Positions 4,245 through 63,458 of a DNA stretch of 64,000 nt are shown piece by piece. Numbering within the stretch: the first letter of the stretch is position 1; each line of letters opens with the position of its first letter. Position numbers and translations under genes: made by a program. The notes below the pieces were generated by a model. It did no database searches. It was not told the origin of the DNA and worked only from the letters and a program-made list of their open reading frames with translations. The stretch comes from Candidatus Bathyarchaeia archaeon (GTDB taxonomy: Archaea; Thermoproteota; Bathyarchaeia; Bathyarchaeales; DTEX01), in assembly GCA_038882715.1 (NCBI GenBank), contig JAVZNR010000006.1, positions 1 to 64,000 of the forward strand, given 5' to 3'.

Positions 4245-4291
4245 AAAAACGCACAATTTTATAATAGCGCGGTATTGGTTGACGCAAATAA

Positions 4292-42772: not shown

Positions 42773-42792
42773 GGGGCTGGTGTGCTGGCCGT
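42773..42792. repeat. Left attachment site (attL) of the rnpB element
   Basis: GGGGCTGGTGTGCTGGCCGT is identical to the rnpB 3'-end copy at 60881. On the element side it is followed by an imperfect palindrome centred on TCTAGA (42793-42818), which could be an integrase arm site. Confidence 0.8.
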
Positions 42793-43885: not shown

Positions 43886-43958
43886 TTTTTATCAAGTTAT
43901 ATCCTGTGAGTAAAGGCATATATAGTTAACTGTCAAAAGGTATCATTAGTGTACCTAT

Positions 43959-44234: not shown

Positions 44235-44405
44235 TTGAATAGGATAAGGATAAACCTGGTTGTGATATTTTTCAGAGTCACTTTGGTTATATTGCTGACG
44301 GGGCATGTTAGGCATAGATTGCTACATTAAAAGGAGAGGTGGAGGCTATTAGTACCTTTGTTTTTGGAAGCCAAGAATAGGGGAATGTGCATGTAAAGCA
44401 TTTGT

Positions 44406-44879: not shown

Positions 44880-45868
44880 ATCTTCTTGGCTTGAGTTTCA
44901 GGAATCATAATATTTGGCCTTATAACTTGGTAAATTTCCGCATGCGCCAAGTAAGGCTCTACATTGGGATGTTGAGCCCCTTCTTCCAAATCTTTTTCCA
45001 AGCCATCAACACAACTGAATAAACAGAAAATGTTGCCATAACCAATTACAACATTCCCATATTCACCACTTTTTAAAGCATTCACTATATTGTCAGGAAG
45101 CGATGTTGCACCTTCCCAACCCCATGCTGTTTTTCCTTTATCTCCTATGTAATGAGCAGACTCAAAAGCAGGATGAGTGTAAGGCACTCCAAAAGCTTTA
45201 AACAAGAGCGGGAAAGCATACCTTTCACCTTCAAGTTCAGGCTCAGGAAATTCTCCAATCGCATGCAAATACCTTCCATAAGCATATATAACTCTAATCA
45301 AATCCCATTTGTCCCAAGTCCTGTTTAAAAACTCATCAATTGTTCCTGGCTGGCAAAAAGGCCATTTTCCGCTGAATTGCTTAACAGCATTTCTTAAGCC
45401 GTGTATTGCCCTGTCTTGAAGAAACATTTGAAAGCGTCCTCTCACTTCATCATATCCAAAGTAAGGATTTATTATTGGATTTTTGTGAACTTCTAATACT
45501 TCTTTATACCTTCTGTCCAAATCTTGAACGAAAAGCTTAGTCCCGTTTATTCCATAAACATATTTGTTGGTTTCTTTGTCGTAAGCTATGGCTGGCAAAG
45601 TTGCCAAATAAATCAAAGCAACGCTTCTGTTTGTTTTGTCTGAGATGTAATCTTTAAGCAAGTTAGAATCATGATAAGGAAATATTACACCAATCCCATC
45701 TCTTTCTAGCTTTGCTGGCAAATGTTTTTCTTCTCTAGTACCAGGTTTAATCCATTCAGCGTTTGGGCCGCATGGACTGTCAAAAATATCATAAGCTACT
45801 TCTTGAACCATCCTGTTTATCCATTCATACTTTTGAGGTTGAGGCAAAATTTCTGGCCTTTCTTTCAA
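44861..45868 (-). CDS. Unrecognised 335-residue protein
   Basis: A soluble protein with no signal peptide or membrane segment. Notable stretches are DIFDSPCGPNAEWIKPGTREE, NPYFGYDEVRGRFQMFLQDRAIHGLRNAV and TAWGWEGATSLPDNI. Composition and frame length argue it is real, but I cannot name a family. The TTG start at 45868 overlaps the stop of the upstream regulator-like gene and lies within a 12-bp perfect hairpin, so its translation may be controlled. The regulator upstream is frameshifted. Confidence 0.6.
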   Translation of the reverse strand: MKERPEILPQPQKYEWINRMVQEVAYDIFDSPCGPNAEWIKPGTREEKHLPAKLERDGIGVIFPYHDSNLLKDYISDKTNRSVALIYLATLPAIAYDKETNKYVYGINGTKLFVQDLDRRYKEVLEVHKNPIINPYFGYDEVRGRFQMFLQDRAIHGLRNAVKQFSGKWPFCQPGTIDEFLNRTWDKWDLIRVIYAYGRYLHAIGEFPEPELEGERYAFPLLFKAFGVPYTHPAFESAHYIGDKGKTAWGWEGATSLPDNIVNALKSGEYGNVVIGYGNIFCLFSCVDGLEKDLEEGAQHPNVEPYLAHAEIYQVIRPNIMIPETQAKKIYLWKK

Positions 45869-46255
45869 AAGAATCTTTGGGAAAGATTCTTTTTGAATAA
45901 ACCTCTAGATAAACCCTTCAAAATTTTAATGAATTGCTTCAGGGCTCTGCTCTCATCATTTATAACATAAACTTTCTTGAAGACTTTGGTGAACCTTCTA
46001 AGCTTAATTTCGCCCTTAGAATCAACCAGATTATTGCTAACAACTCCTTTAATCAAATCGCTCTTAAGAAAACCTTTCTCCTCAAGAGTACTCAGCCTTT
46101 TCCTTACAGCACTGTAGCATAACTCTTGATTGAAAACTCTTTTAAGATCCCTGTGATAGTCTGATATACTTGGCTCTAACCCCCCTAAACTTTGCTCTCA
46201 AAGCTAAAAGAATAAAGGGCTTATCCCTCCAATTCAAAGCATTCTCTATCTTCAT
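45865..46255 (-). pseudogene. Winged-helix-like regulator broken by a frameshift
   Basis: The first part (MKIENALNWRDKPFILLALRAKFRG) and the second (PSISDYHRDLKRVFNQE, then AVRKRLSTLEEKGFL, the recognition-helix and wing pattern) are in different frames joined at a run of six Cs on the plus strand (46180-46185). Removing one base restores a continuous ~130-residue protein ending SQRFF. It would be the first gene of an operon with the 335-residue protein. It may be a pseudogene or a homopolymer error. Confidence 0.55.
45867..45893. promoter_or_regulatory. Perfect 12-bp hairpin covering the start of the 335-residue gene
   Basis: AAAAGAATCTTT-GGG-AAAGATTCTTTT is a perfect inverted repeat with a 3-base spacer. 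On the minus strand it encodes the last codons of the regulator and includes the TTG start of the next gene, so it could occlude initiation, terminate upstream transcription or be a DNA-binding palindrome. Confidence 0.5.
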
Positions 46256-46561
46256 GAAATCACTTAGAAAAAGAAGTTGAGACGTTAAGATTTTGTTTAT
46301 CGATTAATAAAATTTCCGTAATCCGTAATTGGAGAGAAGGCTCATTAGCAGACATATTCCGGGTTTCACCCTGCTCCTTACCTCAACCCATTAACATTTT
46401 TAAAAGATTCTCTTAAACATGAATTTAAGATCCTTATAAAGTTCTTCGTCATCAAAACTCTTCCATGTGTTTAAAAAGAAGAGGTAAACGAATGGGTTTA
46501 CTGGTGCGCAGAAATTCCGTCAGTGCCAAAGAGCCTTTTATAGCTAGAGTGGAATGCGGAG
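46256..46561. other. 306-bp non-coding stretch between divergent genes
   Basis: No gene is supportable. It should contain promoters for the broken regulator (minus) and the giant surface protein (plus). The A/T-rich stretch around 46395-46440 has TATA-like sequences (TTTTTAAAAG, CTTATAAAG). No repeat of note was seen. Confidence 0.4.
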
Positions 46562-49500
46562 TTGAATCGAGTAGCCCTCGCTTTGGGTTTAATCATTCTG
46601 GTATTCTTTCAGGTTTTAACCTCTATGCTAGTTCAAGCGCTGGATTACGCTTGGAAAGATAATTTCAGTTACCAAAATCTGAATGAATCGCAGTCGGCAG
46701 AAGGTAGTGCAAACCGAAACGTACCGATTGCTATCATCTATGAAAACCCAAAATCGATGCATGCTAACTTGAAGATTCTCGGTATTAAATATGATGCATA
46801 TGATAGAAGCAATTTAACTAACTTAAATATAGAAAACTACTCCATTATTCTCATCGATTATAATGTGGGAATTAGAGGCCAAGGTATTCAACCGTCCTTC
46901 GATATTACTGACTGGATACAAATCAATAAAGATGAGCTTATTAAATGGATTCACGAGGGGGGTCACTAATAGACTTCTCATCTGGAGAAGGCTTTGTCTT
47001 ATTCGACTTAGTTGTGCAAGATGCACACAAAGAGGAAAACCTTAAGTGGATTAAAGAGGAAGACGCATTATTCCGGTCGCCAAACATATTCAAAAATGAT
47101 AATTTCACGTTCATAATGTTTGCTGATGCCTATGTAATCGGTGGAGTAGACCTGAGTTCTTTTAATGTCATGGCAAATGGAACAGAGGGAGCTGTTATTC
47201 TCACTAGAAACATTGGCGATGGTAAAGTTTTACTTTGCACAATTGCACAGCATAGATCTATTTTTAGGCGAGGGTTCCTTGAAAACATCCTTTATTGGGC
47301 GGCCAAAGGCTCGGTTAGGAATGTGCCCTTCACAACACAAGAGCTTACTACAAAATATTTCAGGCTTATATACCCATCTTTCGCCCAATCCATCCCGGCG
47401 TTAAAGGAGACGTTAGATGTTATCTATGAGAGGCTTATATGGGTTGCAGGTCGCAAACCTTTTGATGGTGAAAGAATCACTCTAGACTTTACTAAAGATT
47501 TAGATTGGGATATGAAGATCTGGGCGGCTGGCATAGCTGGGAATCCAATTTATATTGATGTGTGGCAACTTCCTGAAGTGTTAGGAAACGACAGAGTTCT
47601 GAGTAGCATTATATACCATGAATTAGGGCACGTCATATTCGGTTGGGCAGACTTCCTTAAAGGTCCCTTCGGCGAAGCGTTCGCAGACATCGGCAAGTAC
47701 TATGCTTTTGATATTCTTGGACTAAGGGAATGGTATAGCTTTGATGAGCAAATAGTCAAAAACGAATTGAAAAAATATGTTGAACAAGGCACAAAATTTA
47801 CTGAGTTGACGAGTAGTGTAGTATCAGGTATTTTCTTAACACTTAAGGATCGGTATGGATGGAATATATTTAAATACTATTTTAAAATCGTAAATTCTTC
47901 CTCAATTAACTACGAGAAATTTCCTTACAATGAAAGGCTCAGCATATTCATATATTATCTAAGCGTATCTGCAGGACACGATTTAGTACCGACATTTAAA
48001 AATTGGGGCTTTCCCATAAGTTACTATTTCTCATTACCCACAATTAATGTGACTTCTATCTTTGCAATTGGAATACCAGGACCTTTATTAGCTTTAAATG
48101 TAGAGTCAGTCCCCATGGTTGCAGGAGACGATGACACGACACCAATCCCCTCGGTTGTCGCCATAGCATCTACTAAGGGTCAAGGGCGCATTATAGCCTT
48201 AGGACATGAAGGCTTCTTAACCAATGAAGCATTAGACCTCTTTGATAATAGAGAGTTTGGCAACAATTTAATAGACTGGTTAGACAAGCTGAATAAAAAG
48301 AAGGTTTTAGTCACGATGGGACATCGCGAAGTGTATGGTGGTGATAACTTCGATAACTTCAAAAGGGAACTAGAGAAACGTGGGTATATTGTCACAAGAT
48401 TCTACGGAGAACTTACTACATCTGTCCTTACTGATGTAAGCATTGTTTTAATTGGTAATGCTTGGGGCGGTTTCTCTAAATTGGAAATCGATGCCTTAGA
48501 AAATTTTGTCGTTAATGGTGGTGGACTCCTTCTTATGGGATTAGGCTGGTCATGGAAGTCTCACAATCAAGGAAAAACTCTTGATGAATATCCAATGAAT
48601 AGAATTGGAGAGATCTTTGGCATTCGGTGGATAGATGGCTATGTTTACGATCCTACAAATAGTTATAATGGATACCCTGTATTCCATACTTTTTATCCTA
48701 ATATTGAGCTGCAAACATTCTCTTCAGTATTTTCATTTATTGAAAACGTTACAGGGGCTCATCCGAATGATCTTCCTTCCCTTCTACAAGATGATGTTAT
48801 TATTCGTAATAAGTACATTAAAGCGCATCTGTTTCTCGCCACAGCTACAATAGAATTAAGTAATTCAAGTATACTGCGAAATGAAATATATAGCTTTTAC
48901 AAGAATCTAATTAACTCTAACCCTCAATATTTCAAGAAATCTGTAGTCTATAATAAAGATGCTCAAAGCGTGATAGCTTGGGTTCGTGAACGAATATATC
49001 GGAGTTTTGTTGATGCATTACCACTAACTTCTGATAGGAAAGAGGAGATAGCTTCCACTATTGGGCTTACAGGGCGGTACTTAGACATTTGGAACGAATT
49101 CTCCGTGTTGCTTTTAGATAACTCTTATCTAAGTCAAAGACAGTTGGACTTTATATATAATTACCTTAGTTCAATTTCGAGAAAACTTCATAATCTTCGA
49201 TCGATCTCCGTGGTGGATAACCTCGGCAAGCCTCCACCCTTTACCTTTGGAATCGACTATGTTTCATTATCTGGTAAGGATGGTAGCATTAACATCTTTG
49301 GACTTGATATAGGCATAATGCAGGAAAATGCATTCCCAAATGATGTTCCGCCAAAATATACAGATGTATTTTGTCTCGTAGTGGTTCATGAAATAAACCA
49401 TGTTGTAGATAGCTATTACATCTCTCACGATGAATTTCTCAGAAACAGAAAGTATGAGCTCATAAAGCGAGCTGGAGACAACTCTATGAACTACCTAAGA

Positions 49501-50880
49501 AGCATGTTTCCTGGCGGCTTCTTCGTAACATATCCCCAAGAGTTCTTTGCTTCAATAGCGAACCAGTGGTTCTCTGATACTGTCTTAACACTAAAGTTGG
49601 CATTAGCTCGATTCGATAAAGGTTACAGGGAACCATTAAACCAATTCCTATTTTTTGCAGAAGTGTATTCCATGGGTGGCAGTATGGCTCCCTTCTATAC
49701 TATTGATACGAAGGGGAACATCGTGAAAAGGGAGGTACCAATTGTTAGAGATGAAAATGGACGTATCATAGCAATAGTAGATAATGGAACTATGTACAGC
49801 TTTACCCTCGATGAACAGGGAAACGTAATTTCCTACTATATTGGCAAACCTATATTCACAGTCACCTTTGATCTTGAGCCCAGGATATATGGACTTACTA
49901 TTGATGGCATACAGTATGAGGCCGAGAACCTACCTTTACATTTTAACTGGTTATATGGGTCTAAGCATTTAATCGAGATCCCTACCATAATTCAGACCCA
50001 GCCCAAAATCCGTTACGTCTTTAAAGGATGGAATGATGGAGAAACCTCTGAGAAAAAAATAGTAATTGTATCATCTTCAACCTCTTTTATTGCAAAATAT
50101 GAAGTAGAATATTTGGTCTCGATATCATCGCCTTATGGCACTTCTTCAGGAGGTGGTTGGTATAAAGCAGGAACAAATGCAACACTCTCGATTAGCCCGA
50201 CTATAATAGATTTTGGGAATAAGACAAGGCTTATCTTTGAACGTTGGACGGGAGATTTAACATCCGAAAATACATCTCTTACAGTTGAAATCAAATCTCC
50301 TATCGCTCTAAACGCTAACTGGAAAACTCAGTATTATCTCAATATCGTATCTCCATATGAGAAGACCATCAGTTCAGGATGATATGATAAGGGCTTAACA
50401 ATTGTAGTAACTGTAAGTTACTTGGTTGAAGTGGCGCAGCAATTAAGATATATGGTTGACTCCTACATACTCGATGGGAAAGCTGTAAAAATACCACGAG
50501 CTGAATCTGGAACTTACTCTTTAACCGTAACTATGAATGCTCCTCACACAATAACTTTTAACTATACTATTCAATACTACTTAACTGTTAAATCTGAATA
50601 TGGTAACCCTCAAGGTGAAGGATGGTATGATGCTAACTCAAAAGCAACCTTCTCGGTCTCACCAACGGCCATAGGTTTTCTTATCCAACAAGTATTTACT
50701 GGATGGAGCGGGGATTCAACAGCAACTTCTCCCTCTGCCACCATTGTAATGAATGGTCCAAAGATTGTTATAGCAAACTGGAAGACAGACTATACTCAAC
50801 TTTACGTGACCATAATTGGAATTGTAGTTATGGGAACCATTTCCTTCATCGCGTTAAAACGAAGAAAGAGGGTTAAATAG
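46562..50880 (+). pseudogene. Giant secreted, membrane-anchored metallopeptidase with two HExxH sites, interrupted twice
   Basis: Reading through one frameshift and one stop gives ~1440 residues. The N-terminus has a signal-anchor (LALGLIILVFFQVLTSMLV). Two glutamine-amidotransferase-like segments (near 46.73 and 48.29 kb) alternate with two zinc-peptidase-like segments: HELGH at ~47618 with GEAFAD downstream, and HEINH at ~49387 with PQEFFASIANQWF downstream. The C-terminus has InlB-type repeats and a final helix with RRKRVK. A G6 run at 46957-46962 breaks the frame (seven Gs would restore it), and TGA at 50380 replaces the Trp of the repeated GWY motif. It may be M60/gluzincin-like. Confidence 0.65.
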
Positions 50881-50976
50881 GCAAAAGGCTTAATCATTTT
50901 TAAGACTTTCTTATCGGAATTATCGGCAATCTACACACTCGCAACCCATTTAGCTTCTTCAAGAAAAATTTAAACC

Positions 50977-51935
50977 ATGAACTCTCAAATTCTCATCAAC
51001 TCAGAAGTGCTTAGTCGATCCTACTTACCAGAAAAATCTTGCATAGAGAAAAGGAAAAGGTAGAATTAACAAATAATCTTAAAAATTTCATAAATACTTT
51101 TATTTGTGGACCCTGCGGTTCTGGAAAAACAACTTTAGTTAAGCACGTAATACATAATCTTAACAAGAAAGTAAGTGTTGCATATGTGGATTGCTCTATA
51201 TTCCAAACTACTTACAGTATACTAAAGGAGATTCTTCCAAGAAGTGAGTTCGTTCTTTATAGAAGCAACTATGAGCTAATCAAAGAACTCTTGAAATACG
51301 CTAAGGAAAGAAAGTTTGCTGTTTGCTTCGATAACTTTGAAAAATTGAAGGAAAAAGATCTAATCGCAAGGCTAATGAGCCTAAACCTTTGTGTTATTTT
51401 GATTTCAGATAATGAAGAGAACATTTCTCTCTTAAGTGAAAGCGTTAGGTCAAACATCCCAAGCATCATAAGACTTCAAGCTTATACAACTGAGCAAAGC
51501 TTCGATATTCTTAAAGATAGAGCAGAGAAAGCGTTAGCCAAGGGGAGCTATACAGATGCAGTAATTAAGAAAATTGCTGAGAAAATTAAGGGTAATCTCG
51601 CTTTAGGAATCAACACGTTAAAAGTTTCCGCTCTAAAAGCTGAAAGCGAAAACAAGAATGCGATAGAAGAATCTGATGTTCAAATCAATAATGATTGCCC
51701 AATAAAGTTAAATCAGGATGAGAAAGTCCTTTTGAAAATCTTAGAAGAGCGGAAGAGCTTACCAGCGAGTAGATTATACGACTTCTACATTCAGAGTACA
51801 AGACATCCGAAAAGTGAGAGGTCTTTCAGAAATTACATGGAGAGCTTATGTTCAAAAAATTTAGTCAGAGCGATTGGGGAGAAGAAGGGAAGGATCTACG
51901 AAATCGTTGGTGTTAATGTTAAGAGTAATGCTTGA
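50977..51935 (+). pseudogene. Orc1/Cdc6-like ATPase, frameshifted near its N-terminus
   Basis: From TTG 51039 a 298-residue AAA+ protein can be read: CGPCGSGKTTLVK is Walker A and FAVCFDNFEKL is a Walker B with Asn in place of the catalytic Glu; a C-terminal winged helix ends the protein. The natural N-terminus (MNSQILINSEVLSRSYLPEK, from ATG 50977) lies in another frame and joins if one A is added to the run at 51032-51036, giving the family's YLPEKxxHRE motif. It resembles element-borne Orc1/Cdc6 paralogues and the intact gene at 54652. Confidence 0.65.
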
Positions 51936-52155
51936 ATGTAAGAATGTGAGAAGTGAAAAAGTTGCGAAGTATCTAGCTAAGCTTACTGATGGCTTTAGCC
52001 TTTGGATGCATGATAATTCTGTTTACGCTTTGTTCGATGTTAATTCATTGATTGAGTTAAAGGAGATAGGTAAAAGGTTGAAGCGTATTAGAGGCGTTGA
52101 GTTTAGGTTCATTAAGATAAGGAGTTTACAAAATTCTGAGGCTTTAGGTGTTTGA
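51916..52155 (+). CDS. Small basic protein (about 79 aa)
   Basis: The frame opens MLRVMLECKNVRSEKVAKYL and ends RSLQNSEALGV; it is basic and has a mixed alpha/beta pattern (SVYALFDVNSLIELKEIGKRLKR). It overlaps the end of the Orc1/Cdc6-like gene by 20 bases and precedes the recombinase. ATG 51916 or 51928 may start it. No family is recognised; it could be a recombination accessory protein. Confidence 0.45.
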   Translation: MLRVMLECKNVRSEKVAKYLAKLTDGFSLWMHDNSVYALFDVNSLIELKEIGKRLKRIRGVEFRFIKIRSLQNSEALGV

Positions 52156-52264
52156 ATTGGATGTAAACTTAGCGCAGAGAATATCCAGAATTTGTGAGTT
52201 GCTTAAGCAAGGTTACAAAGAATTGGAAGAAGCGAAAAGGGACGGGAAAGAAGCTATTCCCTAA
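52148..52264 (+). CDS. Possible 38-residue helical protein before the recombinase
   Basis: A GTG-started frame encoding MFELDVNLAQRISRICELLK and a charged helical tail ending KEAIP. It overlaps the stop of the preceding gene, consistent with coupled translation. Short helical proteins often sit next to integrases, but coding status is uncertain. Confidence 0.3.
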   Translation: MFELDVNLAQRISRICELLKQGYKELEEAKRDGKEAIP

Positions 52265-52270
52265 ATTCTT

Positions 52271-52321
52271 AACTATCGATTATTAACCCAGACGGGGCAT
52301 TTAACTGATAGTTATATAAAT
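52271..52321 (+). promoter_or_regulatory. Promoter and inverted repeat before recombinase 1
   Basis: AACTATC (52271-52277) and GATAGTT (52307-52313) form perfect 7-bp arms. The right arm merges into the TATA-like AGTTATATAAAT (52310-52321), whose distance to the GTG start at 52343 predicts a leaderless or nearly leaderless transcript. A protein bound to the repeat would block TATA access. Confidence 0.45.
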
Positions 52322-52342
52322 GGGGATTAGCTAATTTTAATA

Positions 52343-53545
52343 GTGGTTGACACAATTCATAATTTCTCAAAGCAGCTGGAAAGATTAGAATTAAGGTTAA
52401 GCAAGCAAGAAAGCTTGAGCAAGAGAAATAGGAAGATGCTTCAAGATTTCGCTAGCTTTTTGATAGCTTCTGGCATATCAAAAGGGAGGGTTGCAAAATA
52501 TCTCAGCCATCTTCTTAGCATATCAAAGCTTCTCAATAAAGACTTGGATAAGATTGAAAAAGAAGAGTTGATAAAGGTTGTTGGTGAAATAGAAGGAAGT
52601 GAAAAATATACGGCTTGGACTAAGCATGATTACAAAGTAACTTTAAAGAAGTTTTATAAGTGGCTGTTGGGAGAGCAGGAAGGAAGAAATTTTACAGATT
52701 GGTTTAAAGTAACAGTTAAAAATAATAACAAAACGCTGCCTGAGGAACTTTTAACACCAAGCGATATTGAGAAGCTAGCTTCAGCTTCCACCAATTTGAG
52801 GGATAAAGCCTTTGTTTTAGCTTTATATGAGTCTGGAGCTAGAATCGGCGAATTCCTGCCGATAAAAATCAAGCAGATAGAGTTTGATAAGCATGGTGCT
52901 CTACTAACTCTTCATGGGAAAACTGGCTCTAGGAAGATTAGGCTGATAACTTCTGTCCCAGCTTTAATTCAATGGCTTGACTCACATCCATATAAAAGCG
53001 ATAAAGAAGCGTTTGTTTGGATTAAGATGAAGTTTAATGATGGAAATGAAATGATAACTTATGCTGAAGCATGCAAGATTTTAAGGGAACTTGCTAAAAA
53101 AGCAAATTTGAATAAGCCTGTTAATCCGCATCATTTTCGCCACTCAAGAGCTACTGAGCTGGCTAAGCATTTGACTGAAGCTCAACTTTGCGAATACATG
53201 GGGTGGGTTCAAGGAAGTGATGAAGCCTCAACTTACGTTCATTTAAGCCAAAGAGATATAGAGTCAGCGATACTGAAAATGCATGGGATTAAGGTTGAAG
53301 AAGAGAGGGAAGTAGAGTTTAAACCCATAGTCTGCCCAAGATGTAGGAGAGAAAACTCTCCAGGCAGCAAGTTTTGCTCTTTATGTGGATTAGCCTTAGA
53401 CTTAAAGACTGCAATTGAGCTTGACTCTAAGATGGAGGTTATAACAGATTTGTTCGTGGAAATGCTTGAAGACCCTAAAAGCAGGAGGGTGATAATTAAG
53501 GAAGCGTTGAGAAAAGGGTTAAAGGATAAGCTAAAGGGACTATAA
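52343..53545 (+). CDS. Tyrosine recombinase/integrase 1 with C-terminal zinc ribbon
   Basis: A 400-residue archaeal integrase. The N-terminal core-binding domain (DFASFLIASGISKGRVAKYL) leads to a catalytic domain with Arg I in ESGARIGEFLPI, the His-x-x-Arg box in HHFRHSRATEL and the nucleophile in STYVHLS. Residues ~330-355 form a zinc ribbon (CPRCRRENSPGSKFCSLCG), an add-on seen in archaeal XerA-like and plasmid integrases. The GTG start is preceded by a leaderless-type promoter. It borders the left side of the defence cargo. Confidence 0.88.
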   Translation: MVDTIHNFSKQLERLELRLSKQESLSKRNRKMLQDFASFLIASGISKGRVAKYLSHLLSISKLLNKDLDKIEKEELIKVVGEIEGSEKYTAWTKHDYKVTLKKFYKWLLGEQEGRNFTDWFKVTVKNNNKTLPEELLTPSDIEKLASASTNLRDKAFVLALYESGARIGEFLPIKIKQIEFDKHGALLTLHGKTGSRKIRLITSVPALIQWLDSHPYKSDKEAFVWIKMKFNDGNEMITYAEACKILRELAKKANLNKPVNPHHFRHSRATELAKHLTEAQLCEYMGWVQGSDEASTYVHLSQRDIESAILKMHGIKVEEEREVEFKPIVCPRCRRENSPGSKFCSLCGLALDLKTAIELDSKMEVITDLFVEMLEDPKSRRVIIKEALRKGLKDKLKGL

Positions 53546-53728
53546 AGGCTATTGTCCTGTCGGAATTCTATTGTAAAATTAATTATTTGAATTTATGCCG
53601 AATAATAGTTAATAGCGACTCAATTTTATGATGAAGGTATGAAAGTTTTCTGAAACTTCAGTTGTTATTGATGGAATAATCGCTTAAACTTAAATAGTTA
53701 TCACCTTTTAAGCTTCTGTTGTGGATTA

Positions 53729-54259
53729 ATGGGCATCACTAAGAACATTAAGAAGTGGATTCATGAAGAAAGGAAGAGAATTGAAGGCCTGCTAAAAGAA
53801 ACGCTGATAATTGTGGTTCTTCTTGGAGCTGGTGGAAAAGGAGTTGAGAAAAGAAGGGAAATAGCCAAAAAGTTAGAGGAAAACGGAGTAATTGCACTTA
53901 TACCTGAAGATGATTTCGCTCCAGATATTGCTCCAAGCCTAATAGAAGAAGCAGTTTTTAAAGAGGCTGACGTAGATTTAATTTTCATTAACGTTGAATC
54001 ATGGGGTTCAGCCACAGAGTTTGCTCAGTTTTATGATAAAGCGATTATCGCACCCAAACTCAGAATATTAACTCATTATAAGTATCATCCAATCTATGGG
54101 AGTTCTCATAGCTACTTGACAGACCTCTACCTATCATTCATGGCAAAACATGGGCACGTTTACGCTTATGGTGAAGAAGATAATTTTCCAGACCCGGAGA
54201 AAATAATCTTGGTTTTATCACTTCGTTACAAGTTCCTTAAAGCTTTGGGAAGGGTTTAG
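53729..54259 (+). CDS. Nucleoside deoxyribosyltransferase/TIR-like protein
   Basis: A 176-residue alpha/beta protein. TLIIVVLLGAGGKGVEKRREIAKKL opens the fold, GVIALIPEDDFAPDIAPSL follows, VDLIFINVESWGSATEFAQF places Glu97 at the position of the catalytic Glu of deoxyribosyltransferases and TIR NADases, and the C-terminus holds Tyr/His-rich helices. It would cleave or exchange an N-glycosidic bond if active. The location beside the pAgo cargo suggests a defence-related nucleotide enzyme, which is an inference. Start ATG 53729 lies ~33 bases after CTTAAATAG. Confidence 0.55.
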   Translation: MGITKNIKKWIHEERKRIEGLLKETLIIVVLLGAGGKGVEKRREIAKKLEENGVIALIPEDDFAPDIAPSLIEEAVFKEADVDLIFINVESWGSATEFAQFYDKAIIAPKLRILTHYKYHPIYGSSHSYLTDLYLSFMAKHGHVYAYGEEDNFPDPEKIILVLSLRYKFLKALGRV

Positions 54260-54294
54260 GTAAAGATTTATTTACCTGTTAAAACTATTTTTAC

Positions 54295-54597
54295 TTGATT
54301 AAGATGGAAGAATTAAGAAGAATGCTCAAAATATATAGCGTATTAGACAACGATTACAGACTTAACATTCTGTTTACCATAGCTGATGAGCCAGATATAT
54401 CTTTCAACGATATTGCGAGAAAAACTGGGATTGAAAAAGGACTTTTGGCTTATCACCTTGGAGTATTAAAACATGTGGGCTTAGTTGAGATAGAATATTC
54501 AAAGAGGAGCAAGAAAATAACGAAGTATAAGCTTACAGATGAGGGAAAGAGAGTTCTGGAAAAGCTGAAGTTAGCAGAAAAACCTGCTAATTTATAG
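54295..54597 (+). CDS. ArsR-like winged-helix regulator
   Basis: A 100-residue protein with a winged helix: YRLNILFTIADEPDISFNDIARKTGIEKGLLAYHLGVLKHVGLVEI, then wing residues KRSKKITKYKLT and a final helix. TTG 54295 or ATG 54304 starts it; a TATA-like GATTTATTTA lies ~25 bases upstream, implying a leaderless message. It is between the DRT-like and Orc1/Cdc6-like genes and may regulate this block. Confidence 0.75.
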   Translation: MIKMEELRRMLKIYSVLDNDYRLNILFTIADEPDISFNDIARKTGIEKGLLAYHLGVLKHVGLVEIEYSKRSKKITKYKLTDEGKRVLEKLKLAEKPANL

Positions 54598-54651
54598 CGG
54601 AATTTCTATCGGAACGAAAATCACTTGAATTTATTCCATTAAAAATTAATC

Positions 54652-55650
54652 ATGAATTGTAGTGGCGATTCAATTATCTACAATGAAATGCCTTTAACAG
54701 AAGCTTTCATTCCAAGCAGGCTTTTGCATAGAGAAGGACAGCTGAGAGAGTTGGAGAGATGTCTTAAGCCTATTTTGAGAGGAAGTTTAATAGAAAATGT
54801 TTTTCTCGTTGGCCCTCCGGGTACTGGTAAAACAACTTTGGTGAAATGGGTTCTTGAAAGCTATTTCAAAGAGATTTCATGCTACATTAACTGCTGGAAG
54901 TATAGGAGCACGCATGAAGTCTTAAAGGAAGTTTTGCTTAGCTTTCAGATTCCAGTGCATGGGAGAGAGCCGACAGGCGAACTCATAGATAAAATTGAGA
55001 ATCTAGCTAAGAAAAAGAGGCTTATAATATGCTTAGATGAGGTTGATCAACTAGAAGACTTTGATGTTCTCTACATTCTTTCAAGGAACAGGTTTGGATT
55101 AATTCTTGCTTCAACAAGATACCATGCTCTAATAAATTTACCGTCGAGGATTAAGAGCAGCTTGGCGCTGACTGAAATAGAGTTTCCAGCATACAAGCCA
55201 GATGAGCTTTACGATATTTTAAAAGATAGGGTTCAGTTCTCCTTCAAGCCCAATTCAATAAGCAATGAATTAATTAGAATAATTTCTGTCATGGCTGAGG
55301 GAGACGCAAGAGTTGGGCTTGAAATCTTGAGAAGGGCGGGAAAGAAGGCTGAGGATAAAGGCTTAAGTAAAGTTACGATCGAAGAGGTTAAGCAGGCTGC
55401 AAAGGAAGCAAGAAGGCTGAAGGCTTCTTTCTTCCTCTCAAAGCTGAATGAGCATCAGAAGATAATTTACGAAATACTTGGAAAAAAGAAGAGAATGCCA
55501 TCAGGCCTACTTTACAGAGAATATTGCAAGATGGTTAAAAACCCTGTTGTTGACAGAGCCTACAGAAATTACATGAAGAAGATGGTTGATATGGGATTGG
55601 TAAAAGTTGAGGGATTTGGAAGATGGAAAGTTTATGAAATAATTAGCTAG
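54652..55650 (+). CDS. Orc1/Cdc6-like AAA+ ATPase
   Basis: A 332-residue ATPase: FIPSRLLHREGQLRELERCL is the Orc1/Cdc6 N-terminal motif, FLVGPPGTGKTTLVK Walker A, LIICLDEVDQL Walker B with intact Glu, SRNRFGLILAST sensor 1, and the lid region contains EGDARVGLEILRRAG with sensor 2 Arg. A C-terminal winged helix follows (SGLLYREYCKMVK, DRAYRNYMKKM). It may initiate replication of the element or act as an ATPase switch in the cargo block. It is convergent with the nuclease gene. Confidence 0.82.
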   Translation: MNCSGDSIIYNEMPLTEAFIPSRLLHREGQLRELERCLKPILRGSLIENVFLVGPPGTGKTTLVKWVLESYFKEISCYINCWKYRSTHEVLKEVLLSFQIPVHGREPTGELIDKIENLAKKKRLIICLDEVDQLEDFDVLYILSRNRFGLILASTRYHALINLPSRIKSSLALTEIEFPAYKPDELYDILKDRVQFSFKPNSISNELIRIISVMAEGDARVGLEILRRAGKKAEDKGLSKVTIEEVKQAAKEARRLKASFFLSKLNEHQKIIYEILGKKKRMPSGLLYREYCKMVKNPVVDRAYRNYMKKMVDMGLVKVEGFGRWKVYEIIS

Positions 55651-55772
55651 TCTTATCTTCGTATTACCTTGAATGTTCTTCAACTCATCTATAGCGGTCT
55701 TCATGGCTTAAATGAATGTGTAATTCATAACAAAGTATAATACTAAAAAGTCAAGATTTCCTAACGGTTAGT

Positions 55773-56717
55773 TTAACGAAGCATTTGGCTAACTTGCTTT
55801 ACCAAGTGGGTTGTCGAAGGGATATCTTTCAACGATATAACACGTAAAGTGTTAGTGGGTTTTAACTTTGTACCATCATAAGAAAGAATTATTTTGTACA
55901 TTTTCACAGAAGGATATTTTTCTTTTATCTTGAGAAGGAGATTCTCAGAGATGTTAAGAAAATCCTTAACATCATTATAAGTGGTTTCATTAAATTTACA
56001 TTCAATAGCTATTAAGGAGTTATTTATTAAACCAAGAACATCTATTTCTCCATTTTCTCTATCTCCCACACCTATACCGGCATACTCTATGCTTGTATAC
56101 ACACATTTTTCTTCTCTTTCCCCGATACCCATCCCGATGAGTTTTACACCATTCACCATCCTCATGATATGTGATGCATATATCTCTAACAAATGACCAT
56201 TAATTATTCCTTCCATGAGTTTTCCAGTAATCGATGCTAAGAAGAATTTAAAATCAAACTGCGACCCGCAACTACATTCATCATTTTCATCAAATCTATT
56301 TGTCAAAATTGTCCTTCCACATTCAGAACAAAATAACATGCATTCATTCTTTGGTTCTAAAAAGTTCTGGCTTAAAGCTGCTTTTAAAAATTCATTAATT
56401 CTCCTTATTTTATGATCGTCTGTTTCAAGCGCTTCATACTGTTCAAAAAAGGAGTATGCAAATTCTCTTAAGTAATGTGATCCTGAAACTGTTGCTAAAA
56501 TTTTTGATTTCAGTTTCGTGAAATCAAAATGAGGGGGGTCAACTATGACTAAAGGCTTTGGTCTTCCCTTCCAATAAAAGAGGATGTCCCATGCCTCTAT
56601 ATACTCAGATAAAAGTTTTATAAAAAGTTGAACTCTCTGGTCTAGTTCTAAAGTCGCCTTTCTTCTATCTATTTTTAGCTGAAGAGATTTGATTGTTTCT
56701 TCTATGTCTTCCTTCAT
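55773..56717 (-). CDS. PD-(D/E)XK nuclease with zinc ribbon, partner of the Argonaute
   Basis: A 314-residue protein. Residues 1-120 are helical and unassigned. A zinc ribbon follows (C130-x2-C133 and C148-x-C150). From ~160 comes a restriction-endonuclease fold: Glu178 in GHLLEIYASHI, Asp226 in GEIDVLGL and Glu239-x-Lys241 in IAIECKF, the standard active site, similar to the nuclease domain of Card1/Can2-like proteins. The ATG is 2 bases after the pAgo stop, so both come from one transcript. By analogy with long-B pAgo-associated nucleases it is probably the effector that cuts DNA (or RNA) on guide-dependent activation. Confidence 0.8.
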   Translation of the reverse strand: MKEDIEETIKSLQLKIDRRKATLELDQRVQLFIKLLSEYIEAWDILFYWKGRPKPLVIVDPPHFDFTKLKSKILATVSGSHYLREFAYSFFEQYEALETDDHKIRRINEFLKAALSQNFLEPKNECMLFCSECGRTILTNRFDENDECSCGSQFDFKFFLASITGKLMEGIINGHLLEIYASHIMRMVNGVKLIGMGIGEREEKCVYTSIEYAGIGVGDRENGEIDVLGLINNSLIAIECKFNETTYNDVKDFLNISENLLLKIKEKYPSVKMYKIILSYDGTKLKPTNTLRVISLKDIPSTTHLVKQVSQMLR

Positions 56718-56719
56718 CT

Positions 56720-59374
56720 TTATACCACCAAATAGGTAAAGTCTTGCGTAATTTCCACTTCTCTTGTGATCTCAGCTATGTTCTGAGAAATATTCAGTTC
56801 TGGAGGATACTTGCTTAAAGTTACTGGTGCTATCCAATTTAAGAAAGTCCTATCATAGTATTCCCTTACTATCTCTTTAATCTCTGCTTTTGATTCTAAC
56901 AACTCAACCCTTATATGCATTAGTTTAGCAGTTCCTTGTTTGATACCAATTTCTGGGTGACCTGAAACACAAATTAACGCTTCTTGGTCATTCTTAATGA
57001 TAACTAAACCAGAATCAACATTCAAGATAGTATTATTTTTGATTTTAAATAGTCTGTATATGTCTTCTTCGACCGTGATGAAATCTATCTGTTTATTTTT
57101 CCAATACTCGGTTTCCTTAATTTTATTTATGAACCCCTTAAGAACTATTATTTCATTTTGTTTAAGATGCCCCTTCTTATAAATAACCATTCTTTGAAAT
57201 GGAATTTCAGAAGTCTTATCGCGAACAAAATTGAATAACTTTTGTAACATCTCTTCCGAAAGATAATCTGTAGCTTTGCTGAGTGGTAGATGCTTTTGGT
57301 GAACAAATTTTCCTTGAGCATCGCATATAGCGAGAACGCCTACCGCTTTTCTAATTTCTGAATCTTTTACTTGCATTGAAAAGCCGATTCCACAGTAGAC
57401 TGTTTTAGCTGCCTTATATGATGGGTATCTTAAGATCCATGGGGGTTCATGTGGTTTAAGAGATTTTACATACAAATGCAGTGCAAATCCTCGTAGCAAC
57501 GGTAAATCTCTCTTCATTATTCTTTCGAATTTCCCAATTTTGATGTGTTGATCTGGGATTCTCCATGAATTGTTTATGATGCTTTTTATGATATAATATA
57601 TGAGATGTTGATAGTTTGGTTCCACGAATATAACAATTGATGTTGATGAATCTTGTTTAGGGATCGAAATGGGTTCAAGTTTACTTTTCATTTTTTCCTC
57701 AATTTTTGGATATCTCTCATTCAAAATTGTTGAGCTATAAGGTATTCGAACCCCCTCGGAAGCATACTCTAAAGTTCCAAAAATGCTGTCATAAGTTCTT
57801 TTCAATGCTATTAAAAATTCTTCACATTCTCTTTCAGAGATAAATGATGGACATATAATTTTAGGTATAAAAATTGCTTTATTTCCAGCGTAGCCCCCGT
57901 ACTTGAAAATAGCTCGTGTATCAGTGCTTTGTTGTCTTATATCCTTCTGCGAAAAGACCAAACGTGGAGGAAGTAACCTACAAGATGATTTGAAAATTTC
58001 TTTAATTTCATCTAGACTTGCCATATCTTCTTTAAATTCTATTTTACAAAATGGTGTTTCCACATATGGCATGCAATATGCTATAAACCATTCTCTTATT
58101 TTCTCATATCTTTCTTGCGGAGAAAGCGTAGGAGCCTCTTTCATCATAAATCCTATATTATGTTCAATCCACTTTTTCTCAAAACATAATGTCTCAAGTG
58201 GATAGGAAAAAGGCTTTCCTTGTTTGAACGATATTTCAGCCATACCTGTTTTTGTTGTTAAATCAAGATTATATTTGTTCTTCCAGTAATTTCTTATCTC
58301 GTCTGGTATTCGCTCTTTCAAATCGATTTTACTGATTTTTCCTTTTCGTTTTGTAGGCAATACGCAGATATCTCCAATAAGATGAAGTATTTCTTCGGGT
58401 GTTTCCACACCTAGAGATTCGATCCATTTATCCATGGTGAGGAATTGTACGTAAGTCGGATCTATCCAGAGTATGAATTTCGAATTATTGATCTTGTTAA
58501 CTTTAATATTGAATCCATAGAAAATTGTAAGAGGAAAATTCAGTTGACCAATAGTCACTTTTTTAACTTGCCGTCTTGAAAAATCAATAAATTTAGGTTG
58601 ATCTCTTATTTTGATCAACTTTTTAGAAATAAAATAATCAGATAATATTTTAGTTAACAAATACTCGAATTCACTTACTTCTAAATCAGAGATATTTATC
58701 CTCTTTGCTTCATCTACGAGATTAAAGTTGTTCTCTTTAATGAAACTTATTATGTCGTTCTCTGGCTTTCTATCAAGGAAGAATGTGACTCTATCATAGT
58801 GAAGGTTATAAATGCAATTATATCCACTATTAACAAGCTTCTCAACAAATTTTTTAATGAGCACATATTTTGCACTAAAATCTTGTTTAGTTACGTATTC
58901 GCTACTTGAAATAGAAAATATCCAGACACTTCCTTCTAGTGCCCCAATATAACCGTTAACTAGTATGCGCTCTGAGATTGCAATTTCTCTTCTTTTCTGG
59001 GAATATTCTAACGTATCTGCTAATTCATTCTCTAAAGATTTGATATATTCTTTTCGTTTATCATCTTCAATTAAATCACGTATTCGCATGGCTTGATATT
59101 TTATTTCATCAGCAAATTTTAAGGTAGGTAAAATATAATTAAGATGAACTCTCCCACTAGGTGTTAATTTAATCTCACCATTTTCAGCCATTAAAAAACC
59201 TTCTTCAATACCCTTCTTTACGAGAACTTCAAAACCAAGCTCATTTATAAGCTCTTTACGAATAATGCTGCTCAAGAGAATTCTAGCAGCATATTTCCAA
59301 ATTCCCCTAAGCTTACCATCAATAAGGCTAGTTATGTAAAGTAGATAATTCAAGTCTTCATTTTCATCTGACAT
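56720..59374 (-). CDS. Long prokaryotic Argonaute, catalytically inactive, with N-terminal winged-helix-like extension
   Basis: An 884-residue protein. Residues ~20-95 look like a winged helix and 95-135 like a helical linker. N/L1/PAZ-like sequence spans ~140-400, with FILWIDPTYVQFL at 300 and YPLETLCFEKKW at 391. The MID domain (~575-640) has YYIIKSIINNSWRIPDQ, the Tyr/Lys/Gln 5'-end pocket, then ALHLYVKSLKPHEPPW. PIWI runs 655-884: CGIGFS (Gly663 instead of Asp), IYKKGH (Lys instead of the RDG Asp) and IKQGTAKLMHIRV, LNWIAPVTLSKYP near the end. The tetrad is lost, so target slicing is not expected. It is first in an operon with the nuclease. Confidence 0.88.
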   Translation of the reverse strand: MSDENEDLNYLLYITSLIDGKLRGIWKYAARILLSSIIRKELINELGFEVLVKKGIEEGFLMAENGEIKLTPSGRVHLNYILPTLKFADEIKYQAMRIRDLIEDDKRKEYIKSLENELADTLEYSQKRREIAISERILVNGYIGALEGSVWIFSISSSEYVTKQDFSAKYVLIKKFVEKLVNSGYNCIYNLHYDRVTFFLDRKPENDIISFIKENNFNLVDEAKRINISDLEVSEFEYLLTKILSDYFISKKLIKIRDQPKFIDFSRRQVKKVTIGQLNFPLTIFYGFNIKVNKINNSKFILWIDPTYVQFLTMDKWIESLGVETPEEILHLIGDICVLPTKRKGKISKIDLKERIPDEIRNYWKNKYNLDLTTKTGMAEISFKQGKPFSYPLETLCFEKKWIEHNIGFMMKEAPTLSPQERYEKIREWFIAYCMPYVETPFCKIEFKEDMASLDEIKEIFKSSCRLLPPRLVFSQKDIRQQSTDTRAIFKYGGYAGNKAIFIPKIICPSFISERECEEFLIALKRTYDSIFGTLEYASEGVRIPYSSTILNERYPKIEEKMKSKLEPISIPKQDSSTSIVIFVEPNYQHLIYYIIKSIINNSWRIPDQHIKIGKFERIMKRDLPLLRGFALHLYVKSLKPHEPPWILRYPSYKAAKTVYCGIGFSMQVKDSEIRKAVGVLAICDAQGKFVHQKHLPLSKATDYLSEEMLQKLFNFVRDKTSEIPFQRMVIYKKGHLKQNEIIVLKGFINKIKETEYWKNKQIDFITVEEDIYRLFKIKNNTILNVDSGLVIIKNDQEALICVSGHPEIGIKQGTAKLMHIRVELLESKAEIKEIVREYYDRTFLNWIAPVTLSKYPPELNISQNIAEITREVEITQDFTYLVV

Positions 59375-59400
59375 ATCAAACTATTATTTAAAGTAAGCAT

Positions 59401-59410
59401 TAATATAAAA
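59401..59410 (-). promoter_or_regulatory. TATA box of the pAgo-nuclease operon
   Basis: The minus strand reads TTTTATATTA, centred about 31 bases upstream of the pAgo ATG at 59374. That spacing predicts initiation at or next to the start codon (leaderless transcript), common for archaeal first genes. No Shine-Dalgarno sequence is seen before the ATG. Confidence 0.5.
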
Positions 59411-59486
59411 GTGTTCATAAGTAATCCTCGGGCTTATACTTAGTCTAGTATGCCAGTATAGATCTCATAGCATCTTTGACATCAAC

Positions 59487-60827
59487 TCAATGATTCTGTT
59501 TTCTGATCAGAAACTTTCCATTTCTTAATTCTCTTACTATTTCCCAGCCTTCCTCTACATGCTGAACAAGTTCTTTCTCTTCGATTATTTTACTTCTATA
59601 TGGCTTTTCATCGCAATCTGTATCTTCGTTCCTACGCTTGACAATCCTTGATTCTAAAGGTTTTATTCCCAACTCTTCCCTAATGATTCTTCCTAAGGCC
59701 TCCATTTCATCCAGCTCAGGCTGCTTTTCACGAACCTTCTGAATTTTCACCTCAATATTCTCTATTCCAAGAGTTTTCGCGAAAGCCTTTATCATCTCAA
59801 TCCTCGCTTCCTTCGTCATTTGGCCGGCTGGCGCCCAATTGAGCCTCATATATCTTTGAGCTAGCAATTCTACGTTAGCGTTATGGTATGGTGCCTTTGC
59901 TCCTGGAAGCCTATGTCCCATCAGGTATTCCTTGTCGTCTTCAGCCATCTGCCCCCCATCAACATATCCCATGTCAAGAACAGCTCTGAAGGTTTTCCTT
60001 AAAGAGTGGGCTCTCACATTCCTCCACCCCTTTATTCCAGCTTTTTTCGCAGCCTTCTTCACGATTCTAGTTAAATGCCATTGGCTTATAGGCTCCCTAA
60101 GCCTCTCATGTAAGCTTAAGCTTCTAGATTCAGATGGGAAGAGGAGCTCATCATCTTGGATTCCACCATACTTCTCCTTTCTCCAATTAATGTATTGTCT
60201 AAGGGCCTCTGAAGCCTCAGCACCAAAGAAAGTCCAGTAGTCAACATCCTCTTTACAAGCGTCTGGAAGAACATTCCTCAACTCACTTGTAACATGAACC
60301 CTTATGGGGATAACACCGCTTTCTATCTGATCCTTCAGCATGCCATAAGTCAAAGCCCTCAAAGCACTATTCCTAAGCCCAGACTGAAAGAGGCAGAGGA
60401 TTATCGCCCTCCACTTCAAGTCGCAAACAGAAGCCATCTTATACACTTCCTCTTTAGTCGGCACATACTCAGGCCTCTTCATGGCTTTGTAGGAAGCGTC
60501 GAGATCAAGCTCCTCAACCTTAAACTTGTTAGCCTTTAAAAAGCTCCGCAGGGCCTTCATAGCATTCAAAGCTGTACTCTTCTTACCCTCATCACTCCAC
60601 TTGTCACAGAAAGCCTGAACCATCTCAACAATCTCATCCTTAGGCAACTTAATGAAATCATCCGGAGAAAGATTCACAAACTGAACAAACCAGGCTAAAA
60701 GCTTAAAGTAAGCCTTCATCGTTGAGAGAGAGCCCTTACGCTGCAAGCTCCTTAACCAACGTTGAACGCTAACATACTCAGAATTCTTCCATTCTTCATC
60801 TAGCTTAAGTATCTCCTCGAAGAACAT
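59487..60827 (-). CDS. Tyrosine recombinase/integrase 2, element integrase next to attR
   Basis: A 446-residue recombinase. The N-terminal SAM-like domain contains VQRWLRSLQRKGSLSTMKAY; the catalytic domain contains FQSGLRNSALRAL (Arg I), RAHSLRKTF (His-x-x-Arg) and GHRLPGAKAPYHNAN followed by LAQRYMRLN, supplying the second His and the nucleophilic Tyr. A charged ~120-residue C-terminal extension follows. The start lies ~55 bp from attR in rnpB, the usual place for the integrase of such elements. Confidence 0.88.
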   Translation of the reverse strand: MFFEEILKLDEEWKNSEYVSVQRWLRSLQRKGSLSTMKAYFKLLAWFVQFVNLSPDDFIKLPKDEIVEMVQAFCDKWSDEGKKSTALNAMKALRSFLKANKFKVEELDLDASYKAMKRPEYVPTKEEVYKMASVCDLKWRAIILCLFQSGLRNSALRALTYGMLKDQIESGVIPIRVHVTSELRNVLPDACKEDVDYWTFFGAEASEALRQYINWRKEKYGGIQDDELLFPSESRSLSLHERLREPISQWHLTRIVKKAAKKAGIKGWRNVRAHSLRKTFRAVLDMGYVDGGQMAEDDKEYLMGHRLPGAKAPYHNANVELLAQRYMRLNWAPAGQMTKEARIEMIKAFAKTLGIENIEVKIQKVREKQPELDEMEALGRIIREELGIKPLESRIVKRRNEDTDCDEKPYRSKIIEEKELVQHVEEGWEIVRELRNGKFLIRKQNH

Positions 60828-60879
60828 TTACCATCAGGATAACTAAAAATGATCTTGTATTTAAATGTTACCCACCTTA

Positions 60880-61192
60880 GGGGGCTGGTGTGCTGGCCGT
60901 AACCCGCCTTCTGTTCTAGACGGCATTCAACTGAACGGGCTACCCGCGCCTCACGCAGCCTTCATAGGCGCCTACTTGCCCTTTCACCCCGCGGGACGGC
61001 CGTTTCACCGCTCCCACTAAGCCTACTCGGCGACTTAGCACGCCTCAGCGTCACTGGCTTAGTGGGCGTTCCGTTTCTGTTCCGGAGCCGGGGCTCTCGC
61101 CCCACGCCTTGCGGCGTTGCGGGCTGCGTGGTGGGCGGAGTTTCCTCAGGCGCATAGATGCGCCCGAAAGCCGTCCGCCAGCTCACCAGCCC
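60880..61192 (-). ncRNA. rnpB: RNase P RNA
   Basis: About 313 nt on the minus strand. P1 forms between GGGCTGGTG at the 5' end (61192) and CACCAGCCC at the 3' end (60882-60890). The universal CR-I motif is GAGGAAACTCCGCCC and CR-V is ACAGAAGGCGGGTTA (60900-60914), which pair to make helix P4; further stem-rich GC blocks fit an archaeal type A RNA. It is the catalytic RNA that removes 5' leaders from tRNA precursors. It lies ~37 bases after the NrdD-like gene on the same strand, and its 3' end is the insertion site of the element. Confidence 0.92.
60881..60900. repeat. Right attachment site (attR) in the rnpB 3' end
   Basis: The 20-bp copy identical to 42773-42792. It encodes the 3' strand of rnpB helix P1 and adjoining bases, so insertion regenerates an intact RNA gene. 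Confidence 0.8.
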
Positions 61193-61229: not shown

Positions 61230-63458
61230 CTAGTAAAAAACTACTTTATATCTTGTGGATTCGCGGATGAACTTTGTTATTGCGCCTGTTGACCCGCATA
61301 TGGGGCATTTTGACCGGTCTCCGCGTAAGGTTTTATGGCAGTTACTGCAGTATACGACTGCTGTGTCGAAAGCGTACAGCGGTATTTTGAAGCTTCCTAC
61401 AATTTTCTTTGACAGTGATAATAGTTCTTCTGGGGTATGCTCCTCCACCGGTATTTTAATGAGGTGGCTTCCAGAGAAGAATGGATGTAGCCGCTCCTCT
61501 ATGCTTAGGTATTTTTCTAGCGGGATGTCGGCGGCATACAGTAGACTGCTTAAGTCGCTGTAATACGGCTTGTCTTTAGTGCCGCTAACATTCACTTCAG
61601 CTAAACCATAATGCTCTACATCTAAAGCCGCCATCCTCCTTGAAGCCTCGCTATCCAATATTAGGGATAAAGCGCAGCGCATCTCTCTTCTCTTCGAGAA
61701 ATCGCTGGTAGTCTTCATGAGGTACGAGGACAATTCCTCGGCGAATTTTAGCGGTCCATCCCCCTCATAAATCGCGTTTCCAGTTGCCAGCTTAACGGTC
61801 TCATTCAACCCAGCTACGCTTATCAGAAAAAGCGAATTATTTAGCCTGCAATACGGGTCTCTTCTCCCGCCATAGTGTAGGAATGGCAGTAAACCCTCAT
61901 ATGCGCGTTGCCTTATCGTTAAATACTTTATCTCCAGCGCTCTAATAGCTTTTTCCAGAAAATCGTATATGTTGCCGAAGAAAACTTCCCTATTGCCCCT
62001 AGACTCGTAGAAGGCTCTTGGAAGATTAACTGTGACGCTGCCCACGCATCCAACCCGAATGGTGTCGAGCTCCCAATCCCTTCTCCAATCGTCTGAAAAC
62101 CTTTCCCCAGTAGCTAGGTAAGACGCCCTCTCCTCAACCTCAGAAAACATGTTTGCGAAGTATGGGAGACCGTAGGTCGCAAGCGAATGAGCATTATAGA
62201 GAATGCTTTCCCCCTCACTGGAGCTCAAGCTTTCAGGACGGATCTTAACTATTAGGCTGGGATTAAACATGACTTTAGACTTACATATTTCGCTTAAGGC
62301 CTCAATGATCAGCGACGCTAAAGTTAAGCTCTCCTCAGCGAAATCGCGATAGGCTTCAAGGACGTCTCCCCCCGGACCTATAGCCTTATATTCGGATAAG
62401 AATTCAGGCATACTCGTCTCGATGCCTATTGACACCCCTATCGGAACAGTTAAATTAACTGAGGAGATAAAGAGCGCAATTTCATCTTTAATCTCATCCC
62501 TCGATAAGCCTCTAATGAACGGCGCCAAGAAAACGTTGAAGTGCTCTAAGCCCTGCTCATACGATACTTCCGCGGATGCAAGCCTCAGAATGTTCGTCAC
62601 AAGATTTAGCGCTGCCCTTAAGCTTTTAGGCGGCTGAATAGGCGTGTAATCAGAGTACTGCTCCTTAAACACTAGGCCATACTTTAGAAAGAACCTTAAG
62701 TCATGCACGAAGCTATCCATCTTTAGAACCCAGCACGCGAGATTGTTTAAGTTTAATGCGCCTGAGAGATGCGCATCCGCAATATCCCTTGGAAGCGTGT
62801 TTAAAAGCGTGTATTCTTCAATAACGCGGTTACCGGCTGCTAAACGTATAGCTTCAACATTCGCAGACAGCGAACTCATAAACTTTATCAGTTGCGTCAC
62901 ATCGTAAACCGGAAGCCCCAGACGCGTCAGCTTATGCCTATATTCCTCTAGGCCGCGTTCTATGAGAAGCGCATTCACAAACTCCCTAATTAATGGGGCC
63001 GTCAAGTACTTTGTGTCGAGCTTAAGTAAACGCTCTTCAGCCTCCCTAGATATTTTTTGGGCTAAATCCGATGGGACCCCTGCCTCCCTAACCAATGACT
63101 CAGCGATTTTATTCCTGTCGAAAGGTTCAATTGCCAAACGTGATGTTCTTACAAGCATCCTTCTCCTAGAGGCTCTCTCCTCAAGCCGGCTTGCGAAATC
63201 AACTAGAGACTTACCTATATCGGTTAACACGTATTTTTTCGATTCCACATCAGGCTCTATGAGATCCATACTTAAAAGAACCTTAAGATGATAGGCAAAC
63301 CTACCAGCATCCTTGGTTGGGCTCAGCTTTAAAAGCTTCATGATCTCCGTGTAGGATAGGGGGCCCCTATCAAACAGCAATTTAAGTATGTTTAATCTTA
63401 GACTTGACGATACAGCCTTTAGGACTCTAGTGCCGGTTCTTTTACTTGATGGAGGCAA
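61230..63458 (-). CDS. Winged helix - ATP cone - NrdD-like protein without reductase residues
   Basis: A 742-residue fusion. Residues ~10-95 are an ArsR-like winged helix (LRLNILKLLFDRGPLSYTEI, GRFAYHLKVLLSMDLIEP). Residues ~100-185 are an ATP cone (LAIEPFDRNKIAESLVREAG). The rest is a class III ribonucleotide reductase fold: GSVTVNLPRAFY, SVAGLNETVKLATG, and a C-terminal zinc site C704, C707, C718, C721. After the zinc site the RVxGY glycyl-radical segment is missing (sequence ends TRYKVVFY), and the CCRL-type thiyl region reads WRRDWEL. It is therefore probably a dNTP-sensing regulator. A 17-bp palindrome lies 26 bases upstream of the start. Confidence 0.75.
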   Translation of the reverse strand: MPPSSKRTGTRVLKAVSSSLRLNILKLLFDRGPLSYTEIMKLLKLSPTKDAGRFAYHLKVLLSMDLIEPDVESKKYVLTDIGKSLVDFASRLEERASRRRMLVRTSRLAIEPFDRNKIAESLVREAGVPSDLAQKISREAEERLLKLDTKYLTAPLIREFVNALLIERGLEEYRHKLTRLGLPVYDVTQLIKFMSSLSANVEAIRLAAGNRVIEEYTLLNTLPRDIADAHLSGALNLNNLACWVLKMDSFVHDLRFFLKYGLVFKEQYSDYTPIQPPKSLRAALNLVTNILRLASAEVSYEQGLEHFNVFLAPFIRGLSRDEIKDEIALFISSVNLTVPIGVSIGIETSMPEFLSEYKAIGPGGDVLEAYRDFAEESLTLASLIIEALSEICKSKVMFNPSLIVKIRPESLSSSEGESILYNAHSLATYGLPYFANMFSEVEERASYLATGERFSDDWRRDWELDTIRVGCVGSVTVNLPRAFYESRGNREVFFGNIYDFLEKAIRALEIKYLTIRQRAYEGLLPFLHYGGRRDPYCRLNNSLFLISVAGLNETVKLATGNAIYEGDGPLKFAEELSSYLMKTTSDFSKRREMRCALSLILDSEASRRMAALDVEHYGLAEVNVSGTKDKPYYSDLSSLLYAADIPLEKYLSIEERLHPFFSGSHLIKIPVEEHTPEELLSLSKKIVGSFKIPLYAFDTAVVYCSNCHKTLRGDRSKCPICGSTGAITKFIRESTRYKVVFY

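Follow-up and report, generated by a model that had tools for sequence, protein, structure and literature searches.

A predicted winged-helix module ahead of the N domain of a catalytically inactive archaeal Argonaute

We confirmed an extension of ~134 residues at the N-terminus of a catalytically inactive long prokaryotic Argonaute (pAgo) from Candidatus Bathyarchaeia archaeon (assembly GCA_038882715.1, contig JAVZNR010000006.1, positions 1-64,000; the whole stretch of 64,000 nt is hereafter called the window). The Argonaute gene (56720..59374, minus strand) encodes 884 amino acids, and the extension (residues 1-134; 58973..59374, minus strand) is coding and absent from full-length relatives. 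It would represent an added module, in which a winged helix (residues ~3-86) is followed by a helical linker (residues 87-134) and then by a normal Argonaute N domain. On balance, we favour reading the whole as a dead pAgo, carried by a mobile element, that resembles those of BPAN (long-B pAgo plus bAgaN nuclease; Song et al., 2023, PMC10620215) and bears an added winged-helix module.

The sequence-only reading had remarked that 884 residues exceed the usual length of long pAgos, and a landmark motif confirms this. The landmark (FYGFNIKVNKINNSKFILWIDP, residues 285-306; 58457..58522, minus strand) follows the N/L1 region and is common to the relatives. It begins at residue 285 here, whereas its counterpart starts at positions 122-187 of the open frames in 14 relatives, as counted in stop-to-stop frames of 668-822 aa. 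In most of the full-length pAgos from archaea of this phylum it lies at 143-187, and in one divergent pAgo at 122. Given this offset, the protein carries ~130 extra N-terminal residues. In a MAFFT alignment with the pAgo of a Halorientalis plasmid (L080, 728 aa) and a second relative (L051), Argonaute residues 1-122 remained unpaired and the N domain began at ~138-140. This agrees with the landmark offset and with the earlier claim that the module precedes a normal N domain. Other row sets gave conflicting placements of the N domain; because the MAFFT result varies with the rows included, we consider the landmark offset the firmer evidence. When the Argonaute was compared with its relatives by hhalign, the landmark alone was matched.

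It is highly improbable that the extension is an artefact, either of a translation start located further downstream or of an assembly error that fused a small upstream gene to the Argonaute gene. Internal ATGs are present at codons 62 and 96, and genes for winged helix-turn-helix (wHTH) proteins do occur separately ahead of pAgos, as at locus L073. However, residues 1-134 are coding in the Argonaute frame (0.248 bits per codon versus at most 0.114 in the other frames, which hold 5-23 stops across this stretch), with a signal as strong as that of the Argonaute body. Moreover, a start-codon scan from codon 97 to codon 170 found no ATG, GTG or TTG; part of the extension must therefore be translated. 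A TATA-like box of the Argonaute-nuclease gene pair (ttttatatta; 59401..59410, minus strand) also appears to be placed to suit a near-leaderless start at 59374, that is, at codon 1. Alternatively, the extension could be a divergent Argonaute N domain swollen by an insertion, with no separate module. Conservation within pAgos is lowest in the N domain (Ryazansky et al., 2018, PMC6299218), and several MAFFT runs placed the N-domain start of other pAgos at query residues 32-41 or 105-120. These placements disagree among themselves, however, and in the alignment with L080 and L051 the N domain falls past the extension. Residues 138-284 alone hold every N/L1 element of L051, in order, and the predicted helix-hairpin order of the extension is unlike the strand with which an N domain starts. 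We regard a swollen N domain as improbable, and an added module as the better account of residues 1-134.

As to the fold of this module, it is quite likely a winged helix, judging from single-sequence models of moderate confidence. Two AlphaFold models were made from the single sequence, one of residues 1-90 and one of residues 1-141, which includes the linker. The shorter model has helices at residues 3-21, 26-37, 43-46 and 48-57, strands at 61-64 and 67-70, and a helix at 72-85; the longer one adds, at low confidence, helices at 88-101 and 105-140. The predicted winged-helix core would span residues 3-86 (59117..59368, minus strand) and the predicted wing hairpin residues 61-70 (LMAENGEIKL; 59165..59194, minus strand), directly before TPSG, while the low-confidence helical linker occupies 58973..59116 on the minus strand. 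Confidence in the models peaks at the hairpin and the helix after it, with a pLDDT of ~73 (72-74) over residues 51-80 of the shorter model. Mean pLDDT is 51 for the longer model and 57 for the shorter, and residues 35-45 fall below 50. A Foldseek search of the PDB with the 1-90 model returned a top list made up mostly of winged helices, but with E values of at least 0.13 throughout; no PDB match of this model reached an E value of 0.001. The list is led by HucR (probability 0.97), the DNA-binding domain of CggR, an archaeal MarR, LmrR, MhqR and MarR. BpsA, a protein with an N-terminal winged helix, matched with an rmsd of 0.8 over 34 residues. The Foldseek list for the 1-141 model, in which winged helices are mixed with ferritin-like proteins, was set aside. 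The structure prediction and fold comparison called for by the sequence-only reading have thus yielded winged-helix-like models and neighbours, but no significant match.

Profile comparisons were negative. Against the HTH_45, PadR and DUF7347 (ArsR-like) profiles the extension scored no better than its own shuffles, and Pfam, NCBIfam and PADLOC gave no match within it. A regular expression for the wing, chosen after viewing the sequence, was found in only 4 of the 88 members of three winged-helix families. The order of elements described from sequence (helices, a wing of the NGEIKLTPSG type, a helical linker) was reproduced by AlphaFold. Homologues with the same extension, the search for which had also been proposed, did not turn up when the whole protein, its extension or alignments served as queries against phages, plasmids, viral contigs, a set of 85,000 genome contigs and the whole class (257 genomes); one alignment, A1, was too divergent to serve as a scan query. 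The extension was recognised by none of the profiles tested, and no homologue of it was found. Scanning the 257 genomes with the extension gave nine other matches, individually insignificant (E values of 0.017-0.07 per genome). Four of the nine (L056, L057, L060 and L063) coincide with a Pfam winged-helix match; four others (L058, L059, L061 and L062) are not winged helices, and L064 looks winged-helix-like by eye, without a Pfam match. Against the TrmB-like family of L057 the extension again did no better than its shuffles. A gapless scan with residues 46-86 ranked L063 (58), L056 (39) and L057 (36) first, against a background of 25, and all three are winged-helix wings. As these loci had been selected as matches to the extension, the ranking does not count as independent of that selection.

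Alternatively, residues 1-134 might form a helical or coiled-coil module for protein contact that does not bind DNA, any wing being incidental. The longer model has long helices across residues 88-140, the first Foldseek list contained ferritin-like helical proteins, and the extension as a whole is acidic (net charge -3), all of which would suit such a module. Many winged helices serve protein contacts. Yet the most confident part of the models is precisely the hairpin with its following helix, and once the linker was trimmed the ferritin-like matches disappeared and mostly winged helices remained. We consider a protein-contact module unlikely, and retain the winged helix as our reading of the fold.

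The protein that carries the extension is a very divergent Argonaute, as no confident Pfam match was obtained for its 884 residues and a PDB sequence search recovered the PIWI part of VbAgo alone (3.3e-4); identity to the relatives is 20-25%. The PADLOC pAgo profile covers residues 462-879 (3.8e-36), a MID-PIWI homology that identifies it as a prokaryotic Argonaute. The ~740 residues past the extension align end to end with the L080 and L051 pAgos, from which the Argonaute is judged to be full-length, with an N region and a presumed PAZ region. Its catalytic residues are lost. Ser666 (codon 57377..57379, minus strand) occupies the position of the first catalytic Asp of active relatives, and Lys734 (codon 57173..57175, minus strand) that of a catalytic Asp in an active relative, leaving a PIWI domain without the catalytic tetrad, as is characteristic of the long-B pAgos of BPAN. 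The MID pocket retains Tyr593, Lys597 and Gln609. From established Argonaute motifs, the protein probably keeps guide binding and should not cut. Other arrangements exist among the relatives: at L002 and L053 the pAgo is split into a gene for the N-terminal half and a MID-PIWI gene, followed by a gene of ~420 aa.

Two bases downstream of the Argonaute gene lies a gene for an associated nuclease of 314 aa (55773..56717, minus strand), and the two form a gene pair. By sequence, the putative nuclease combines a zinc ribbon with a PD-(D/E)XK-like motif, GEIDVL...IAIECK (GEIDVLGLINNSLIAIECKF); its family matches, to Card1_endonuc and to CARF-PDDEXK/Csx1 (PADLOC), are weak or below threshold. With this gene directly downstream of that of an inactive pAgo, the arrangement resembles that of BPAN, in which an inactive pAgo that recognises its target switches on a DNase (Song et al., 2023, PMC10620215). 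By analogy, the catalytically dead long pAgo would act as a guide-loaded sensor and the PD-(D/E)XK-like nuclease as the effector.

The pair lies within an integrated element of 18.1 kb (42773-60900), as established by direct repeats, the end of an RNase P RNA gene and G+C content. A perfect 20-nt direct repeat marks both ends (attL, 42773..42792; attR, 60881..60900). The archaeal RNase P RNA gene (60888-61186, 210.7 bits) has its 3' end inside the right-hand copy, and this end is kept in the relatives (18-20 of the 20 bases in most genomes of the same genus). Between the repeats, G+C is mostly 32-39%, versus 43.5% for the window. The element holds two tyrosine recombinases, one of them beside attR (59487..60827, minus strand; Pfam Phage_integrase, 1.1e-8), and two Orc1/Cdc6-like AAA+ ATPase genes (51039-51935 and 54652-55650), which suggest a replicon origin. 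The Argonaute-nuclease pair adjoins the integrase, as cargo of the element. Among the other genes of the element is a stand-alone winged-helix regulator of 100 aa (54295-54597, plus strand; HTH_34, 4.7e-9). A 176-aa protein (53729-54259, plus strand) resembles PADLOC NDT_II-A (3.4e-8) and may be a second defence component. A protein of 1145 aa (46945-50382, plus strand) has only weak DUF4350/IFT52-like matches; after it comes a protein of 152 aa whose match is InlB-repeat-like. At 61230-63458 (minus strand) lies a gene for an anaerobic ribonucleotide reductase whose ATP cone is preceded by an ArsR-like winged helix; this winged helix is ordinary, as the same DUF7347 match recurs in the ~750-aa frames of most relatives.

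What could the extension contribute to such a system? The simplest reading, drawn by analogy, would be a fused regulator or DNA-contact module, and we infer that it is a DNA-binding appendage that replaces the separate helix-turn-helix (HTH) gene common beside long-B pAgos. Net charge is +3 over residues 22-86, which makes this part only mildly basic, and -3 over the whole extension. Autoregulation of a toxic operon may be its job, as a tentative first choice. No palindrome or inverted repeat was found in the promoter of the Argonaute-nuclease pair, so autoregulation stands as no more than the foremost of three candidate roles. Keeping target DNA close to the Argonaute is a rather doubtful second, and protein contact, that is, dimerisation or docking of the nuclease, is somewhat less likely still. 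More speculatively, one polypeptide might combine a guide-directed sensor with a transcriptional regulator of its own nuclease operon, although we deem this unlikely: the winged helix would keep the operon off, and binding of guide or target by the Argonaute would release it. If true, effector expression on a mobile element would be tied to detection.

Operons of long-B pAgos often encode a separate HTH protein, and a natural fusion suggests that the two work together. The fusion also offers one compact protein in which the cooperation of HTH and pAgo could be tested. In addition, its location on an element integrated in an RNase P RNA gene adds to the case for a role of pAgos in conflicts between mobile elements.

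The fusion of a DNA-binding module to the Argonaute had been thought unusual, but it is less so than claimed, since N-terminal DNA-binding domains on long pAgos were already reported in 2018 (Ryazansky et al., 2018, PMC6299218). Long pAgos that begin with a DNA-binding-type domain are, as a kind, already published. The fused domains described there are Schlafen AlbA_2 (PF04326), lambda-repressor-like (SSF47413) and OB-fold domains, of which the first two occur as fusions on several long-B pAgos; DNA-binding proteins are moreover encoded in 33% of long-B operons (PMC6299218). Like these fusions, the Argonaute studied here has a putative nucleic-acid-binding domain added at its N-terminus; it differs in that the domain is a predicted winged helix, and residues 1-141 lack any Pfam match and hence PF04326. 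A winged helix at the N-terminus of a long pAgo was not found in the open-access literature searched. Two loci of the same taxonomic order offer further comparisons. At L073 (G071; 688-3757) the gene of a wHTH protein overlaps the start of a long pAgo gene. Here too a winged-helix protein is linked to a long pAgo, but as separate overlapping genes rather than as a fusion, and its wHTH protein shows no significant similarity to the extension. At L074 (G125; 1586-4561) a DNA-binding-type domain is fused before an archaeal pAgo, as in our case, but it is a Schlafen AlbA_2 domain (6.7e-11) in a frame of 992 aa. The gene pair as a whole, from the genes alone, is comparable to BPAN: in both, the gene of a full-length pAgo that lacks catalytic activity comes first and a nuclease gene follows directly, of PD-(D/E)XK type in BPAN and putatively so here (Song et al., 2023, PMC10620215). 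It differs from BPAN in being archaeal and very divergent, in the zinc ribbon of its nuclease and in the extension of its pAgo.
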